Both the position numbers and the translations under genes were made by a program. From NCBI RefSeq assembly GCF_015624425.1, contig NZ_CP049919.1, positions 248,001 through 312,000 on the forward strand: a stretch of 64,000 bases of DNA. The letters run 5' to 3'. The notes under the pieces are model-generated. The model searched no databases. It had not been told where the DNA came from and saw only the letters and a list, made by a program, of their open reading frames with translations. The stretch comes from Roseateles sp. DAIF2 (lineage in GTDB: Bacteria > Pseudomonadota > Gammaproteobacteria > Burkholderiales > Burkholderiaceae_C). Below, in pieces: positions 14,705-23,303 of this stretch. The first letter of the stretch is position 1. Every line of letters starts with the position of its first letter.

Positions 14705-15340
14705 ATGGCCTACCCGACGAACCCCGCCCCCGCCTCCCTCTTCCCGCCCGCGCGGCCGCGTGGCGGCCTGGCCGGGCGCCTCATCGCCGCGCTGCTGCGC
14801 CCGCCGGTGACGGGGCGCATCGCCGCCTTCGAGCGGCGCTACCGCTACCGGATGGACTACGCGCGCCAGCTCTACGACGCCAGCCCCGCCGCCTTCTGGC
14901 AGCTGGCGAAGCTGTTCGGCATTGCCGGCGGCGTGCCGGGCCTGAGCCCGGCGATGCTGGTGGCCGCCAAGTTCGCCGCCACCCGGCGCGAGGACTGCGG
15001 CCCCTGCGCCCAGCTGGTGCTGGACCTGGCGCTGGAGGCCGGCGTGCCGGCCGCTGCGCTGCGCGCGCTGGTCGCCGGTGACGCCACGGCGATGCCCGAG
15101 GACATGCGCCTGGCCTGGCGCTATGCCGAGGCCGCGCTGGCGCGCGATCCCGAGTCCGAAACCCATGCGCGGGCGCTGGGCGAGCGCCTGGGGCCGCAGG
15201 CGGTGGCCGGCGTGGCGCTGGCGCTGAGCGTGGCGCGCACCTTCCCGACCCTGAAGTACGCGCTGGGCCATGGCCGCAGCTGCCAGCGCCTGGTCGTGGG
15301 CGCCGACAATGCCGGCGGCGGGGAGGCGCAGACACGATGA
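14705..15340 (+). CDS. AhpD-like (carboxymuconolactone decarboxylase family) protein
   Basis: The protein is 211 aa from the ATG at 14705, which has GAAGGAG 8-13 bases upstream; in-frame ATG 14684 and TTG 14681 are less likely starts. The motif EDCGPCAQLVLDLALE carries a CxxC pair in the AhpD-type helical fold, which suggests thiol peroxidase or reductase chemistry. Carboxymuconolactone decarboxylase-like proteins are one of the standard partners of ECF41 sigma factors. An ECF41-type promoter precedes it. Its last codons overlap the next sigma gene (ATGATGA), so the two are translationally coupled. Confidence 0.85.
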   Translation: MAYPTNPAPASLFPPARPRGGLAGRLIAALLRPPVTGRIAAFERRYRYRMDYARQLYDASPAAFWQLAKLFGIAGGVPGLSPAMLVAAKFAATRREDCGPCAQLVLDLALEAGVPAAALRALVAGDATAMPEDMRLAWRYAEAALARDPESETHARALGERLGPQAVAGVALALSVARTFPTLKYALGHGRSCQRLVVGADNAGGGEAQTR

Positions 15341-16362
15341 TGAGCAGGGAGCAAGATCAACAAGCACAACAGGATTCAGCAGCCGGCCCGGACGCCGCGC
15401 CGGACCGATCGGCGGCCGCGCGCGCCCGGCGCTTCGACCGCGAGCATGCGCGCTCCCTGCGCGCGCTGGCCTACCGCATGCTCGGTTCGCGCGCCGAGGC
15501 GGAGGACATCGTGCAGGAGGCCTGGTTGCGCTGGGCCGAGGTGAACGAGGGCGAGGTGCGGCATGCCGGCGCCTTCCTGTCGCGCCTGGTCACCAACCTC
15601 TGCCTGGATCGGCTGCGCAGCCCGGCGCAGCAGCGCGAGCTCTATGTCGGCACCTGGCTGCCGGAGCCGCTGGTCGACGATCTGCAGGGTTGGCAGCCCG
15701 ACCCGCAGAGCCAGGCCGAATATGCGCAGGAGCTGTCGCTGGCCTTCATGCTGGCGCTGGAGCGGCTGACGCCGCTGGAGCGCGCCGCCTTCGTGCTGCA
15801 CGACGTGTTCGGGCTGGACTTCGAAGCGGTGGCCGGCCATCTGTCGCGCAGCGTCGCGGCCTGCCGCCAGCTCTCGCTGCGCGCGCGGGCCCATGTGAAG
15901 GCCGGCTATGCGCGGGTCAATCTGGAGGAGGTGGAGCGCCAGCGCCTGCTGCAGGCCTTTCTGTCCGCGCTGGCGAGCGGCGATGTGGACCGCCTGGCCA
16001 AGGTGCTGGCCGACGACGCGGTGCTGCTGGCCGACGGCGGCGGCAAGGTCAACGCCGTGCCCCGGCCGCTGCGGGGCGGCGCGCGCATCGCCAAGACCCT
16101 GGTCGGCTTCTCCAAGCTGGTCGATCTGGGCCAGCTGTGCCTGCAGCTGACACCTATCAATGGCCTGCCCGGCTATGTGCTGTTCGATGCCCGCGGCTGC
16201 GCGATCCAGAGCGTGGCGCTGGCGCCGCGGGCCGGCGACGGGCGGGTGCTGACGATCTATGTGCAGCTCAACCCCGACAAGCTGCGCCACCTGGCGCTGC
16301 CAAAGGATCTGGTGCCGATTTCCGAGCTCGATGTCACAAGCGGCCGGGCCATGTCGTCTTGA
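15337..16362 (+). CDS. ECF41-type sigma factor with SnoaL-like C-terminal domain (second copy)
   Basis: This 341-aa protein is a paralogue of the sigma factor at 13672, sharing RALAYRMLGSRAEAEDIVQ, WLPEP, DGGGKVNAVPRPL and LNPDKL. An N-terminal extension of about 35 residues is unique to this copy. Its start overlaps the AhpD-like stop by four bases. The second ECF41-type promoter lies inside its last codons (16332-16358), reading out into the next AhpD-like gene. The two paralogues may share promoters or discriminate subtly between them; the sequence does not decide this. Confidence 0.94.
   Translation: MMSREQDQQAQQDSAAGPDAAPDRSAAARARRFDREHARSLRALAYRMLGSRAEAEDIVQEAWLRWAEVNEGEVRHAGAFLSRLVTNLCLDRLRSPAQQRELYVGTWLPEPLVDDLQGWQPDPQSQAEYAQELSLAFMLALERLTPLERAAFVLHDVFGLDFEAVAGHLSRSVAACRQLSLRARAHVKAGYARVNLEEVERQRLLQAFLSALASGDVDRLAKVLADDAVLLADGGGKVNAVPRPLRGGARIAKTLVGFSKLVDLGQLCLQLTPINGLPGYVLFDARGCAIQSVALAPRAGDGRVLTIYVQLNPDKLRHLALPKDLVPISELDVTSGRAMSS
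16332..16358 (+). promoter_or_regulatory. ECF41-dependent promoter of the second AhpD gene
   Basis: TGTCACA (16332-16338), 16 bases, CGTC (16355-16358): an exact match to the ECF41 consensus. It lies within the 3' end of the second ECF41 gene, 62 bases before the AhpD-like start. Confidence 0.8.
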
Positions 16363-16931: not shown

Positions 16932-18131
16932 TCAGGCCTGCAGACGCAGGCGCGAGCCCACGCACATCAAGCGCATCACGTCCTCCGCGGCGCGCGCCAG
17001 CCAGGGCCGGGAGCGGGCCATCGACTCCTCCAGGGTGCAGGGCCGGTGCACGATGCTGGCGAAGGCGTCGATGCCATGGGCCAGGTTGTCGGTGGCGCCG
17101 CGCCCCAGGGTGCCGGCCAGGGCCACCACCGGCAGGCCCAGCAGCTTGGCGCGGCGCGCCACCTCGGCCGGCACCTTGCCGAAGGGGGTCTGCTCGTCCA
17201 GGCTGCCCTCGGCGGTGATGACCAGGTCGGCGCGCGCCATCAGGGCATCGAGCTCGAGATAGCGCATCACGATGTCGAAGCGCGGGTGCAGGGTTCCGCC
17301 CAGCAGCGCGGCAACACCCGACCCCAGGCCGCCGGAGGCGCCGGAGCCCGGCGCGCCGCCGATCGCGAGGCCGAGGTCGGCCTGGATGCGCGCGGCGTAG
17401 TTCTCCAGCGCCGCCTCCAGCTGCAGCACCTGCTCGGGCGTGGCGCCCTTCTGCGGGCCGAACACGCGGGCCACGCCGCGCTCGCCCAGCAGCTGGTTGT
17501 GCCAGTTGACCGCGGCGTCCAGCTGCACGCGGGCCAGCCTGGGGTCCAGCGCCGCCAGGTCGATGCGCGCCAGGCGCGCCAGCTCGGCGCCGCCGCGGCC
17601 GATCTGGGCGCCGTCGGCGTCGAGCAGCCGGGCGCCCAGGGCCTGGGCCATGCCGGCGCCGCCGTCATTGATGCCCGAATCGCCGCAGCCCAGCAGGATG
17701 CGCTGCGCGCCGGCGTCGAGCGCCGCGCGGATCAGCTCGCCGACGCCATGGCTGGTGGTCAGCATCGGGTTGCGGCGGTCGCGCGGCACCAGGCGCAGGC
17801 CGGCCGCGGCGGCCATCTCGATCACCGCGGTGCGCGGCCCGCTGCCGCCGAGGAAGCCGAAGAAGGCCGGCACCGGATCGCCGACCGGCCCGGTCACCGT
17901 CAGCCGCTGCAACCGACCGCCGGTGGCGCCGACCAGGGCCTCGGTGAAGCCCTCGCCGCCATCGGCCATCGGCGCCTTCAGCAGCACCGCCTCGGGCATC
18001 ACGCGGCGCACGCCGGCGGCGATATGGTCGGCCACCTCCTGGGCGCTCAGGCTCTCCTTGAAGCCCGAGGGCGCGACCAGCACGGTCAAGGGTTGCTGGG
18101 TGTGGGTGATGATGCTTTTCTTCTTGCGCAT
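16932..18131 (-). CDS. glxK: Glycerate kinase, GlxK/GarK family
   Basis: The start MRKKKS at 18131 gives 399 aa, slightly longer than the usual 375-385 because of a basic leader. Family motifs include VLVAPSGFKESLSAQEVADH, ADGGEGF, GCGDSGINDGGAGMAQALG, GGAPGSGASGGLG and ITAEGSLDEQTPFGKVP. This family phosphorylates glycerate with ATP to 2-phosphoglycerate, feeding glyoxylate/tartronate or glucarate breakdown into glycolysis. An SLC13-type carrier gene lies directly upstream on the same strand and may import the substrate. Confidence 0.93.
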   Translation of the reverse strand: MRKKKSIITHTQQPLTVLVAPSGFKESLSAQEVADHIAAGVRRVMPEAVLLKAPMADGGEGFTEALVGATGGRLQRLTVTGPVGDPVPAFFGFLGGSGPRTAVIEMAAAAGLRLVPRDRRNPMLTTSHGVGELIRAALDAGAQRILLGCGDSGINDGGAGMAQALGARLLDADGAQIGRGGAELARLARIDLAALDPRLARVQLDAAVNWHNQLLGERGVARVFGPQKGATPEQVLQLEAALENYAARIQADLGLAIGGAPGSGASGGLGSGVAALLGGTLHPRFDIVMRYLELDALMARADLVITAEGSLDEQTPFGKVPAEVARRAKLLGLPVVALAGTLGRGATDNLAHGIDAFASIVHRPCTLEESMARSRPWLARAAEDVMRLMCVGSRLRLQA

Positions 18132-18253
18132 GATGCGGCTGCTCCCGGTTCGTGGCGCGCGGGTCCCGAATGGCCCGCGCATGTCCAGAGGACGGGCGGG
18201 GCGGCCGGCTATTCCCTGCCGATACGCATCGATACAAAGAAGCAAAGAAAAGC

Positions 18254-19690
18254 TCAGAGACCCTGCAGCGGCCAGACGAACAGCGCGAACAGCCACAGCA
18301 GCGCGGCGAAGGCGGGCGCCAGCAGGGCCGCGAGCTTGAGCAGGTCCCGCGGCGCGCAGCCCGGCCCCTCGGCCCGTGCGAACAGGGCCACCGGCTTGGC
18401 GCTGACCGCCAGGGTCTGGCAGAAGCCGCTGCCCTGCACGCAGACGAAGATCAGCAGCGCCGCCTCGCCGCCGCCGGCCGCGGCCAGCGGCAGCGCCAGG
18501 GTCGGGATCAGCACCACCGCGCGCGCGGTGCGCGAGGTGATCAAGAGATGCGACAGCACCGACAGCAGCGCCGCCGCGCCCAGCAGCCAGGCCGGCGCGG
18601 CGCCGGCCAGCGGCAGCGCCTGCAGCGCCAGGCGCGACAGGGCCTGGGCCGCGCCGCTGTCCAGCAGTGCCTGGCCCATCACCGTGGTCGCCGCCAGGAA
18701 CAGCAGCAGGTTCCACTCCAGCTTCTTCAGCGCCTGCGCCATGCCCATGCCGGTCAGCGGCCGGCAGGTCGCGGCCAGCGCGCCCAGCAGGGCCACCAGG
18801 GTGGCGTCGAGGCCCAGCCAGGGCCCGGCGATCCAGCCGGCGATGCTCAGCGCGGTGACGGCCAGCACGCCGCGCTGCGGTGCGCTGAGCGGCTCGCGCG
18901 GCGGCGCCGGCAGGCTCAGCGGCGCGGCGCGTTCGGCGGCCGTCAGGAACAGGCGCAGGATCAGCTCGGTGGCGCCCAGGCAGGCCAGCAGCGCAAAGGG
19001 CAGGGCCAGCGCCGCCCAGCGCAGGAAGTCGAGCCGAGGGCCGCCGCTGCGCTCGATGAAATCCAGCGCCACCAGATGCGCGCCCGCGCCCAGCAGCGAG
19101 GCGCCGGCCGACAGCAGGATCACGGTGGGGAACAGCAGGGCCAGGGCGCGCGCCAGGCGCGGCCGCTCGAGCGTGCGCGTCAGCGCTAGGAACAGCGGCA
19201 GCAGCAGCGCGGCGCGCGCCGAGGTGGAGGGGATGATGAAGGCGGTGGCCGCGATCACCCAGCAAAGCCGGCGGCACAGCCCGGCGGCGCTGCCGGCGCC
19301 GGTCACCGCGCGCAGCGCCGCGCGCTCGGCCAGGCCGCTGCCCTGCAGCACCGCGGACAGCACGAAGGCGCCCAGCAGCAGCCAGATCAGCTCGCTGCCC
19401 AGGCTGGCATAGAGGGTCTGGGTCGGCACGACGCCGCCGCCGACCAGGGCCAGGCAGGCCAGCAGGGCCACCGGCGTGTCATCCCAGCGCAGCAGGCTCC
19501 AGGCGATCAGCGCCAGCGCGAACACCAGCAGGGCCAGGCGCGCGGTCGGCGCCAGCCCGGGCAGGCCGAGCCAGATGCCGGCGGCGGCGGCCAGGGCCAG
19601 CAGCGCCGCCAGCGCGGGGCGGGTCCAGGCGCACGGCGACGATGGGGAGGAAAGCGCGGACGGCGGGGCGAGGCAGGTTTTGTCGTTCAT
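18254..19690 (-). CDS. SLC13/DASS-family anion permease
   Basis: The 478-aa polytopic protein has about eleven hydrophobic segments. Segments such as SLGSELIWLLLGAFVLSAVL and IIPSTSARAALLLPL resemble the divalent anion:sodium symporter family, whose SNT/STT-like clamps hold substrate and sodium. The family takes up dicarboxylates, sulfate or tartrate-like acids. Sitting 122 bases ahead of glycerate kinase, it could carry glycerate, tartrate or a related acid; this is inference from linkage. Confidence 0.8.
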   Translation of the reverse strand: MNDKTCLAPPSALSSPSSPCAWTRPALAALLALAAAAGIWLGLPGLAPTARLALLVFALALIAWSLLRWDDTPVALLACLALVGGGVVPTQTLYASLGSELIWLLLGAFVLSAVLQGSGLAERAALRAVTGAGSAAGLCRRLCWVIAATAFIIPSTSARAALLLPLFLALTRTLERPRLARALALLFPTVILLSAGASLLGAGAHLVALDFIERSGGPRLDFLRWAALALPFALLACLGATELILRLFLTAAERAAPLSLPAPPREPLSAPQRGVLAVTALSIAGWIAGPWLGLDATLVALLGALAATCRPLTGMGMAQALKKLEWNLLLFLAATTVMGQALLDSGAAQALSRLALQALPLAGAAPAWLLGAAALLSVLSHLLITSRTARAVVLIPTLALPLAAAGGGEAALLIFVCVQGSGFCQTLAVSAKPVALFARAEGPGCAPRDLLKLAALLAPAFAALLWLFALFVWPLQGL

Positions 19691-19750
19691 GCCCCGGCAT
19701 ACGCGCCGCGCCGCGCCTTATTCCATCAATCCCTTATCAATCCATCCGGA

Positions 19751-21153: not shown

Positions 21154-21178
21154 GACGTCTGGGCGCCGGGTTTATTCC
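21154..21178 (-). promoter_or_regulatory. ECF-type promoter of the S8 peptidase gene
   Basis: Minus strand: GGAATAAA (GGAAT at 21178-21174), 16-base spacer from GGAAT, then CGTC (21157-21154), 63 bases ahead of the peptidase start. The same arrangement occurs at 21204 (plus) and 22718 (plus). Confidence 0.7.
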
Positions 21179-21203
21179 GTAAGTCTAGAGGCGGGCAGAG
21201 GTG

Positions 21204-21228
21204 GGAATAGAAGCGCGGCTTGCGCGTC
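21204..21228 (+). promoter_or_regulatory. ECF-type autoregulatory promoter of the sigma/anti-sigma operon
   Basis: GGAATAGA (GGAAT 21204-21208), 16-base spacer, CGTC (21225-21228), about 40 bases before the sigma factor start. It matches the motifs at 21154-21178 and 22718-22742 in both elements and spacing. Confidence 0.7.
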
Positions 21229-21267
21229 TTCGGGAGCGTTCCCAAGGGAAAAAAGGACAACAAGACC

Positions 21268-21792
21268 ATGCAAGAAGACCTGGGCGCCGCGCTGGTGGCG
21301 GCCCTGCCCCGGCTGCGGCGCTATGCGCTGGCGCTGAGCCGCAGCGGCGATATCGCCGACGATCTGGTGCAGGGCGCCTGCGAGCGCGCGCTGGCCGCGC
21401 GCGGCCCGGCCGATGCCGAGACGCCGCTGCTGGCCTGGCTGTTCACCATCATCCGCAACCTCTGGCTGGACCGGCTGCGCCGCAAGCAGACCGAGGGCGT
21501 GCAGACCGATATCGACGAGCAGGCCGAGCTGCTGAGCGGCGCCGGCAGCGAGGACGAGCGAGTCGATGCGCGGCGCCGGCTCGAGAAGGTGCAGCGGGCG
21601 CTGGAGCGCCTGCCCGGCGAGCAGCGCGAGCTGATGCTGCTGATCTGCGTCGAGGAGCTGTCCTACAAGGAGGCGGCGGCCGTCACCGGCGTGCCGATCG
21701 GCACCGTGATGAGCCGGCTGGCGCGGGCGCGGGTGCGGCTGGCCGAGCTGGCCGGCCTGTCGGGAGCCGCGGCGGCGGCGAGTGCGGCCTGA
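21268..21792 (+). CDS. ECF RNA polymerase sigma factor (RpoE-like)
   Basis: From ATG 21268 (AAGGAC upstream) the protein is 174 aa; the frame extends to 21220 but that leader is unlikely. Region 2 is GDIADDLVQGACERALAARG with LFTIIRNLWLDRLRR. Region 4 is LERLPGEQRELMLLICVEEL, followed by SYKEAAAVTGVPIGTVMSRL. It is the classical two-domain ECF form, unlike the long ECF41/42 factors nearby. It is followed after 18 bases by its anti-sigma gene. Its probable promoter motif occurs three times in the 1.6 kb around it. Confidence 0.95.
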   Translation: MQEDLGAALVAALPRLRRYALALSRSGDIADDLVQGACERALAARGPADAETPLLAWLFTIIRNLWLDRLRRKQTEGVQTDIDEQAELLSGAGSEDERVDARRRLEKVQRALERLPGEQRELMLLICVEELSYKEAAAVTGVPIGTVMSRLARARVRLAELAGLSGAAAAASAA

Positions 21793-21810
21793 GGGCAAGA
21801 AGAAGAGGCA

Positions 21811-22689
21811 ATGGACACAACTATGGACAACAGCAAGACCTGGAGCGACGAGCAGCTTGCCGCCTATGCGGACGGTGCGCTGGACGCCGCGCAAGCGAGC
21901 GCGCTGGAGGCCGCGCTGGAGGCCGATGCGGCGCTGGCCGAGCGCGTGGCCCTGATGTTCGAGACCCGCGAGCTGGGTCGGCAGGCCTTCGACGCCCAGC
22001 TGGACGAGACGCCGGTGCCGGCGGCGCTGCGCGCCTCGGTCGAGGCGATGGTGGCGCAGGACCGGGCGGCGCGTGCGCGCGCCGAGTCGCAGCAGGCGCC
22101 CGCCACGCCGGCGCGCCGGCCCGCTGCCGCCGCGCCCCGCCAGTCCTGGTGGCGCGGGCTGCTGCAGCAGCTGGGCGGTGGTGGTGCCTATGCGCTGCCG
22201 GCCGGGGCGCTGGCCTCGGTGCTGTTCGGCACGCTGGGCTATCTGCTGGGCAGCGGCGGCGGGCTCGGTGGGCGTGATGGCGGCGGCGGTGACGAGCCGG
22301 CCGCGCTGGCGGTGGTCGGCAAGCCCGCGGCACCGGCGCTGGCTGCGCTGCTGGACCGGCTGCCGAGCGGGCAGCAGCAGGCCAACGGTCCGGCGCAGCA
22401 GGCCGTGGTCGTCGCGATGGTGGCGAGCTACCGCGATGCGGGCGGGGCGCTGTGCCGCGACTTCTCGGTCGAGCCCGGCCAGGCGCCCCGGGTGGAAGCG
22501 GTGGCCTGCCGTGCGGGTGAAGCCGGCCCCTGGCAGGTCCGCTTCGCCGCGCTGGCGGAGACCGATGCACAGGGCGGCGGCTTCACGCCGGCCTCGCCGC
22601 ATTCCGCGCTGGACAGCTATCTGGCCAGCATCGGCGCGGGCAAGCCGCTGGACGCGGCGGCGGAACGGGCGGCGCTGGCGGGGAAATGA
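21811..22689 (+). CDS. Transmembrane anti-sigma factor
   Basis: The 292-aa protein has an N-terminal anti-sigma domain (DEQLAAYADGALDAAQASAL) without the zinc-binding HxxxCxxC motif. A proline/alanine linker and one membrane segment (YALPAGALASVLFGTLGYLL) follow, then a periplasmic domain with two cysteines (ALCRDFS and VACRAGE) that could form a disulphide. This topology suits sensing an envelope signal and holding the sigma factor at the membrane. It is co-transcribed with the sigma gene. Confidence 0.88.
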   Translation: MDTTMDNSKTWSDEQLAAYADGALDAAQASALEAALEADAALAERVALMFETRELGRQAFDAQLDETPVPAALRASVEAMVAQDRAARARAESQQAPATPARRPAAAAPRQSWWRGLLQQLGGGGAYALPAGALASVLFGTLGYLLGSGGGLGGRDGGGGDEPAALAVVGKPAAPALAALLDRLPSGQQQANGPAQQAVVVAMVASYRDAGGALCRDFSVEPGQAPRVEAVACRAGEAGPWQVRFAALAETDAQGGGFTPASPHSALDSYLASIGAGKPLDAAAERAALAGK

Positions 22690-22717
22690 TGATGAAGGGG
22701 AAGGGCGGGCCGGCGAT

Positions 22718-22742
22718 GGAATAAATCGCGCGCCTGCACGTC
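22718..22742 (+). promoter_or_regulatory. ECF-type promoter of the lipoprotein gene
   Basis: GGAATAAA (GGAAT 22718-22722), 16-base spacer, CGTC (22739-22742), 76 bases upstream of the lipoprotein start. It is the third occurrence of this motif in the locus. Confidence 0.68.
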
Positions 22743-22817: not shown

Positions 22818-23303
22818 ATGCTCAGACCCTCTTCAGCCTTCTTCTCTTTCCTCATCTTCCGCGGCGCTCGCGCGGCGGGCCTGCTCCTGGCCGCGCTTGC
22901 GCTTGGCGGCTGTGCCACCGCGCCGCAGCAGGCCGTGCTCTACCCGCGCGCCGCGGATGGCTCCAGCCATGCCGCGGCGGCCAAGGAGCGCGCGGCCAGC
23001 GCCCTGCAGGGCTGCGAGCAGCGGGCGCAGGCCGATGTCGGCCGCAACGAGCGCAGCCTGAGCCGCAAGGAAGGCCGCGCCATGCTGACCGAGGGCCTGT
23101 CCGAGGCGGCCGAGACCGCCACCGCGGGCCTGATCAAGAACTCCGGCAATCTGCTGCGCGGCACCATCGCCGGCGGCGTCGGCGGCCTGGTCGGCGCCGC
23201 GGTCAAGGTCGGCGCCGACTGGAACCAGGCCGACCGGGTCTACGAGAAATATGTCGAGCACTGCATGAAGGAGCGCGGGCATGTGGTGCTGGGGTGGCGC
23301 TGA
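22818..23303 (+). CDS. Lipoprotein with glycine-zipper segment
   Basis: The signal ends in LALGGC, so the 161-aa product is a predicted lipoprotein. A helical basic middle region leads into a glycine-rich hydrophobic segment (GTIAGGVGGLVGAAVKVGAD) of the glycine-zipper type found in envelope stress lipoproteins. The C-terminal part has YEKYVEHCMKERGH, as in small uncharacterised outer-membrane lipoproteins. With its own ECF-type promoter just behind the sigma/anti-sigma pair, it is probably a regulon member; its function is unknown. Confidence 0.82.
   Translation: MLRPSSAFFSFLIFRGARAAGLLLAALALGGCATAPQQAVLYPRAADGSSHAAAAKERAASALQGCEQRAQADVGRNERSLSRKEGRAMLTEGLSEAAETATAGLIKNSGNLLRGTIAGGVGGLVGAAVKVGADWNQADRVYEKYVEHCMKERGHVVLGWR

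Follow-up and report, generated by a model that had tools for sequence, protein, structure and literature searches.

A probable RpoE6-type ECF26 regulatory island in Roseateles sp. DAIF2 and its candidate target genes in related bacteria

Genes and promoter-like sites at the locus

The window, that is the whole stretch of DNA analysed here, comprises 64,000 nt of Roseateles sp. DAIF2 (NZ_CP049919.1 positions 248,001-312,000) and belongs to a genome of one contig with 6,010,585 bases; all coordinates are window positions. An operon for an ECF sigma factor and a membrane anti-sigma factor lies divergently to the gene of an S8 peptidase, the genes for an anion permease and a glycerate kinase follow behind the latter, and a small lipoprotein is encoded downstream of the anti-sigma gene (Table 1). 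The preliminary description of this DNA had pointed to three copies of GGAATARA-N13-CGTC, with 16 bases between GGAAT and CGTC, placed 40-80 bases before the start codons of the S8, sigma and lipoprotein genes. All three were confirmed as exact matches at the positions claimed, and the start codon lies 63 (S8), 40 (sigma) and 76 bases (lipoprotein) past the CGT; no further exact copy is present in the window. The idea that these three sites delimit a mini-regulon of three members was upheld only in part. The copies are real, but the likely number of promoters is five, as the copies ahead of the permease and glycerate kinase genes had been overlooked.

Table 1. Positions of the genes and predicted promoter sites in the window
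Feature	Position	Strand	Remarks
Glycerate kinase (PF02595)	16935..18131	-	Pfam Gly_kinase E 6.8e-139; likely regulon member
Predicted promoter site of glycerate kinase, GGAATA-N15-CGT	18192..18215	-	60 bases before kinase ATG; absent from the preliminary description
DASS/SLC13-type anion permease	18254..19690	-	CitMHS E 4.7e-21, Na_sulph_symp E 4.7e-18; likely regulon member
Predicted promoter site of permease, GGAATA-N15-CGT	19701..19724	-	10 bases before annotated ATG; absent from the preliminary description
S8 peptidase (subtilase), 446 aa	19751..21091	-	PF00082 E 1.9e-35; SMa0142 orthologue, as judged from sequence
Predicted promoter site of S8, GGAATAAA-N13-CGTC	21154..21178	-	exact match
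Predicted promoter site of sigma/anti-sigma operon, GGAATAGA-N13-CGTC	21204..21228	+	exact match
ECF sigma factor, RpoE6 type (ECF26), 174 aa	21268..21792	+	Sigma70_r2, Sigma70_r4_2; reciprocal best match; tree
Membrane anti-sigma factor	21811..22689	+	zf-HC2-like N-terminal domain, presumed TM helix, C-terminal beta domain
Predicted promoter site of lipoprotein, GGAATAAA-N13-CGTC	22718..22742	+	exact match
Small lipoprotein, glycine-zipper-like stretch	22818..23303	+	lineage-restricted likely regulon member

The sigma factor contains regions 2 and 4 only (Sigma70_r2, Sigma70_r4_2), as expected of ECF26, and no ECF26 group model was among the matches listed for it (best 25 of 96 in one search). 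As judged by eye, the N-terminus of the S8 peptidase resembles a signal sequence, and the protein has an acidic stretch rich in Gly and Asp; its residues D194, H230, N322 and S385 are invariant in 84/84 rows. The permease reached E 9e-29 against TIGR00785 (dass), which is under the cut-off of that model, and the lipoprotein gave no family match at cut-off. The model of the anti-sigma factor, built with 41 sequences (mean pLDDT 79.9), shows a confident N-terminal helical part and a confident C-terminal beta domain, separated by a low-confidence middle in which the presumed TM helix, judged from sequence, is situated. The zf-HC2 domain was found in 27 of the 41 members, with the score of the window protein itself being under the cut-off. 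All 41 rows share the cysteines C210 and C228, which lie on strands of the model that are neighbours in sequence. There is a hint of similarity between the C-terminal domain and Pfam DUF5061 (E 0.0073 in one of the 41 members, E 0.12 for the window protein), and the best hit of a solved-structure profile search with the anti-sigma factor (E 0.12, in a low-complexity stretch) was taken as chance. The window also encodes a second sigma factor at 15337-16362 (+), with a weak SnoaL-like C-terminal match, which we take to resemble the ECF41-type sigmas with a fused regulator.

Motif statistics and conservation in orthologous loci

When up to two mismatches were allowed, the window held 9 matches against 2.39 expected, and none of 100 shuffles reached 9. 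The scan of the whole genome that had been suggested as a check returned four exact copies, three of which belong to this locus; the binomial estimate for three of four copies within 1.6 kb is about 7e-11, and the fourth (L004) is inside a coding-like frame. The count with one mismatch was 25 in the genome and 21 for a reversed-pattern control. Since it barely exceeds the control, single-mismatch matches alone carry little meaning. The relaxed form GGAATA-N15-CGT occurs 26 times in the genome, compared with 3 times for the reversed control, and five of these copies are found within 4.55 kb of the window (binomial 1.6e-11), all of them intergenic and followed by a start codon after 10 to 76 bases. 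The remaining 21 seem to be intragenic: 20 are in coding-like frames according to a GC-position test and one (L005) was judged intragenic by eye. The shortness of the motif, the apparently intragenic and probably random location of these 21 copies and the closeness of the one-mismatch counts to the control might indicate that in this GC-rich genome the three sites match by chance. However, this is contradicted by their clustering, their intergenic placement and the conservation in relatives that is described below. A chance origin was rejected because the motif is both clustered and conserved, and its probability is regarded as negligible. The repeated motif marks a small set of genes that are probably run by one sigma factor.

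The same sites may also be read by a related sigma factor of this genome (G000:C1:4743570, 49% identical), in which case the regulon would be part of a shared ECF26 network and not private. Cross-activation within the ECF26 sigmas of Sinorhizobium meliloti is documented (PMC6180224; PMC10880074), and a foreign ECF26 promoter was activated by RpoE1, RpoE4 and RpoE6, not by RpoE3 (PMC10880074). However, no GGAATA-N15-CGT site was found near the gene of the related sigma, where other spacings were scanned for CGTC only, and the five intergenic sites all surround the window sigma, so a network of this kind appears rather doubtful. Control by the window sigma is the reading preferred here.

Conservation of the motif was evaluated in 90 loci (the window, L066-L073 and L084-L164), with GGAATA-N14/15-CGT as the pattern upstream of each gene. 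It preceded the glycerate kinase gene in all 29 loci having the kinase, window included, the permease gene in 23/29, the DUF6065 gene in 32/37 and the S8 gene in 57/84 loci. Moreover, it was present upstream of the anti-sigma gene, near the end of the sigma gene, in 60/89 loci; this internal promoter was not found in the window. Upstream of sigma the motif was counted in 11/90 loci under strict spacing, and looser spacing adds sites. In 20 first-order shuffles per stretch the rates were 0.000-0.002 for the kinase, permease, DUF6065, S8, anti-sigma and sigma stretches. The corresponding counts on the opposite strand were 0 for the kinase, 6 for the permease (n=29), 1 for DUF6065, 1 for the anti-sigma, 7 for S8 and 58 for sigma. 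The last two values are expected because the promoter of each of these genes lies ahead of the other, the 58 being mostly S8 promoters. The six permease stretches with a motif on both strands, like the short distance of 10 bases between the permease site and the annotated ATG, count against the five-promoter reading. The comparison of loci shows that four of the five kinds of site predicted in the window are conserved in relatives. Conservation at orthologous loci had also been suggested as a check on the motif; variants of it are present there, but the exact CGTC form is not the conserved one. Relatives mostly have CGTT or CGTA in the gap between S8 and sigma, CGTC being rarer than CGTT, and no GGAAT-N15/17-CGTC site was found in that gap of L066-L073. 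The sigma site of 8 family relatives, read by eye, was GGAAT-N16-CGTT/CGTA in four and GGAAG-N17-CGTT in four.

Of 399 family genomes, 9 gave a match to the anti-sigma factor, including the genome of the window itself, with at most 6 candidates scored per genome among the rows listed. S8 is divergent from sigma in 7 of the 8 other family loci, and the eighth, on a 5.3-kb contig, is without an S8 match. In the scan of named genomes, for which the best 80 of 537 confirmed relatives were used, S8 was divergent in 74 loci, located elsewhere in one (L119) and unmatched in five (L086, L100, L102, L107 and L163), of which only L163 ends close upstream. The divergent S8 in 74 of these best 80 loci bears out the proposal that sigma, anti-sigma and S8 form a conserved unit. 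The same trio is carried by pSymA of S. meliloti 1021 (L084), with identities to the window of 55% for sigma, 34% for the anti-sigma and 40% for the divergent serine protease. A reciprocal best match links the window sigma to the RpoE6 locus of S. meliloti 4H41 (175.7 versus next 101.9 bits, and 173.3 versus 86.9). In a midpoint-rooted tree of 62 sigma rows, the S8-linked sigmas fall into one set of 27 rows, 25 of them with S8 (support 96/93), and this set holds both the window sigma and L095; its two rows without S8 are L226, a second sigma of S. meliloti, and the cut-off L163. The S8 label requires three changes on the tree, the flanks of L027-L055 and L226-L233 being shorter than those of most other rows. 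L067 and L085, which stand nearest to the window in the tree, have sites at sigma, S8, permease and kinase and a gene order as in the window. L095 and L084 were taken as RpoE6 on the strength of their layout and of promoters that equal or closely resemble those in PMC6180224. Because the reciprocal best matches, the tree and the gene order agree, the window system is judged to be the orthologue of S. meliloti RpoE6, its anti-sigma and the divergent SMa0142. The tree also places L110, an assembly titled Bacillus subtilis strain SK6B4 that has this proteobacterial module, with Rhizobium; this assembly is probably mislabelled or contaminated.

The proteolytic module proposed in the preliminary description would make S8 a candidate site-1 protease, which cuts the periplasmic domain of the anti-sigma factor and whose induction closes a positive loop. 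The divergent position of S8, often under the same motif as sigma, the invariance of its catalytic residues (84/84) and the folded C-terminal domain in the anti-sigma model are consistent with such a role. However, the five loci without an S8 match do have sigma and anti-sigma, only L163 being cut off nearby, and a self-amplifying site-1 protease would require a separate trigger. This role is considered unlikely. In the reading preferred here, the subtilase would act instead as an envelope or extracellular effector.

Further motif-bearing genes and a possible shared -35 element

Glycerate kinase and permease always occur together: 29 of the 90 loci have both, and the others have neither. The lipoprotein was searched for in 299 genomes from the larger family, with at most 12 candidates scored in each, and homologues at E 1e-4 occurred in 22 other genomes. 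Among the 90 loci the lipoprotein gene, and with it this copy of the motif, was seen in the window alone; the flanks fetched for the 89 others gave no match. Its membership in the proposed mini-regulon is supported by the exact motif upstream, but the lipoprotein, missing from the other flanks, was ruled out as a core member of the regulon. The two best homologues (L166 and L167) adjoin genes of the same permease/kinase pair; the 12 kb read there contained neither a match to sigma or S8 nor a site of the GGAAT type. Since they stand beside this pair without S8, the lipoprotein is linked to the permease and kinase, not to the protease, which suggests that it may serve the permease.

Another group of genes comprises those for secreted-looking proteins that consist largely of NSSS tetrapeptide repeats and are nearly always encoded beside a DUF6065 gene. 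There were 38 NSSS-repeat loci, 33 of them with the ECF26 motif upstream (e.g., L084:10387 (+)). DUF6065 was accompanied by an NSSS-repeat ORF in 36 of 37 loci by rule, and the 37th, taken as L124, also shows one. The NSSS-repeat proteins gave no family at cut-off (one tested in Pfam, two in NCBIfam), the best hit of DUF6065 in a solved-structure profile search had E 0.63, and a literature search found no paper on DUF6065. In the genome of the window itself no DUF6065 match was obtained, in a search run without a positive control. Other motif-preceded genes were observed in Microvirga (L105:7319 (+) and nine further loci), where they follow the anti-sigma gene and the L105 product is a DUF1236 protein, and in Aminobacter (L091:4318 and L101:4335 (-)), where genes of membrane proteins, a DUF4956 protein in L091, adjoin S8.

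With the L071 sigma as the query, 23 of 398 family genomes matched at E <=1e-35. In 20 of the 23 loci (L200-L219), the gap ahead of sigma contains the symmetric pattern AACG-N10-GGAAGAAAATCC-N10-CGTT, in which the 12-mer and the tetrads are fixed by the search pattern, the initial search having sought just GGAA and CGTT/CGTC. Between loci, the mean identity of the two spacers is 45% and 41%. Each of these 20 genomes has a single copy of the 40-bp pattern, the remaining 378 have no copy, and the reversed control gave 0. A divergent S8 gene was matched in 19 of these 20 loci, the exception being L201. Among the remaining three, L220 has no S8 in the flank and retains the sigma-side half only, L221 is a partial sigma match without a site, and L222 has the GGAAT-N16-CGTT form together with S8. 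The pattern looks like one ECF promoter firing both ways from a shared -35, and we know of no description of GGATT as a -35 form of ECF26. No account of a shared -35, or of a link between glycerate kinase/permease and ECF26, was found in the open-licence literature, and earlier work may exist elsewhere. The sister clade would offer a compact, testable case of one ECF promoter read in both directions.

On balance, we lean slightly towards the view that RpoE6-type ECF26 systems across Alpha- and Betaproteobacteria run a conserved programme so far undescribed. Such a programme would combine S8 with two cargoes, namely glycerate kinase with the DASS permease, and DUF6065 with secreted NSSS-repeat proteins, whose maturation may involve DUF6065 and S8. 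Within one clade of Betaproteobacteria, protease and sigma would be transcribed from the single 40-bp symmetric promoter, with the 12-base -35 common to both directions.

Predicted working of the island and comparison with known systems

The most probable reading, to which we assign a probability of roughly 0.8, is that the locus forms an RpoE6-type ECF26 regulatory island, in which a sigma factor held by its anti-sigma would direct RNA polymerase to five local promoters. The membrane anti-sigma would hold sigma until it is inactivated, and the release may work through its periplasmic domain, where the two invariant cysteines stand on neighbouring strands of the model. The freed sigma would then take RNA polymerase to the five GGAATA-N15-CGT sites, the use of each being predicted from its sequence. 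The promoter of its own operon would provide feedback and renewed anti-sigma, and the others would drive subtilase, DASS-type permease, glycerate kinase and lipoprotein. The permease may import glycerate, or an acid related to it, for phosphorylation by the kinase. The locus most likely acts as an autoregulated sigma switch that fires a subtilase, an acid-uptake and phosphorylation pair and a lineage-specific envelope protein.

In the Sigma-E/RseA system, an ECF sigma is retained by an anti-sigma that spans the membrane, has a periplasmic part and is subject to DegS-type site-1 proteolysis. The window resembles Sigma-E/RseA/DegS in its ECF sigma, in an anti-sigma with a presumed TM helix and a predicted periplasmic domain, and in a serine protease that would belong to the circuit. 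Unlike in that system, the protease of the window is a subtilase and likely a member of the regulon.

A closer counterpart is found in S. meliloti: its ECF26 sigma RpoE6 induces SMa0142, a serine protease gene that lies divergently, and the GGAATA/CGTT promoter of this gene has been mapped (PMC6180224). The log FC values upon RpoE6 overexpression were 4.7 for SMa0142, 6.5 for SMa0148 and 3.6 for ecfR6, and GGAATA...CGTT promoters are listed (PMC6180224). Three sites of that work were read in L084, ahead of S8, the DUF6065 gene and the anti-sigma, and the DUF6065 gene of pSymA is SMa0148 by its promoter. The supposition that the motif is an ECF-type promoter agrees with the known ECF26 consensus (-35 GGAAT, -10 CGTC; PMC6527743), and the predicted promoters of the window fit the target form with -35 GGAATA and -10 GT, in CGTC or CGTT (PMC6180224; PMC6527743). 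RpoE6/EcfR6/SMa0142 and the window are alike in the orthologous trio, the GGAATA/CGT motif and a protease gene preceded by it, which in S. meliloti is a target upon RpoE6 overexpression. The module had at first not been recognised as described; however, published work on S. meliloti covers the arrangement, the motif and the induction of the protease by RpoE6. Since the RpoE6 module of ECF26 has already been described (PMC6180224), the sigma/anti-sigma/S8 system itself is of a known kind and not new. The suggested envelope-stress function is not supported either. In S. meliloti, stresses that trigger RpoE2 failed to activate the targets unique to RpoE6, and no role was found for RpoE6 (PMC6180224).

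The two systems also differ. The window sigma has its own copy of the motif, whereas in S. meliloti the promoter of rpoE6 is RpoD-like and that of ecfR6 is internal (PMC6180224). As only 11/90 sigmas have a strict site of their own and the rpoE6 promoter of S. meliloti is of another type, the feedback appears to be lineage-dependent. S. meliloti RpoE1 and RpoE4, which respond to sulfite (PMC3511301; PMC6527743), share with the window the ECF26 group and the -35 GGAAT/-10 CGTC, but their targets, unlike those of the window, include sulfite oxidation genes (PMC6180224; PMC3511301). No glycerate kinase or permease was found in 20 kb of pSymA or among the RpoE6 targets in the accessible parts of PMC6180224. 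The motif-bearing cargo of the window consists of glycerate kinase, permease and lipoprotein, whereas that of pSymA consists of the DUF6065 and NSSS-repeat genes. For RpoE6, whose targets are mapped and for which no role was found (PMC6180224), the cross-species map of the motif offers candidates, namely glycerate kinase with the anion permease, and secreted NSSS-repeat proteins with DUF6065.
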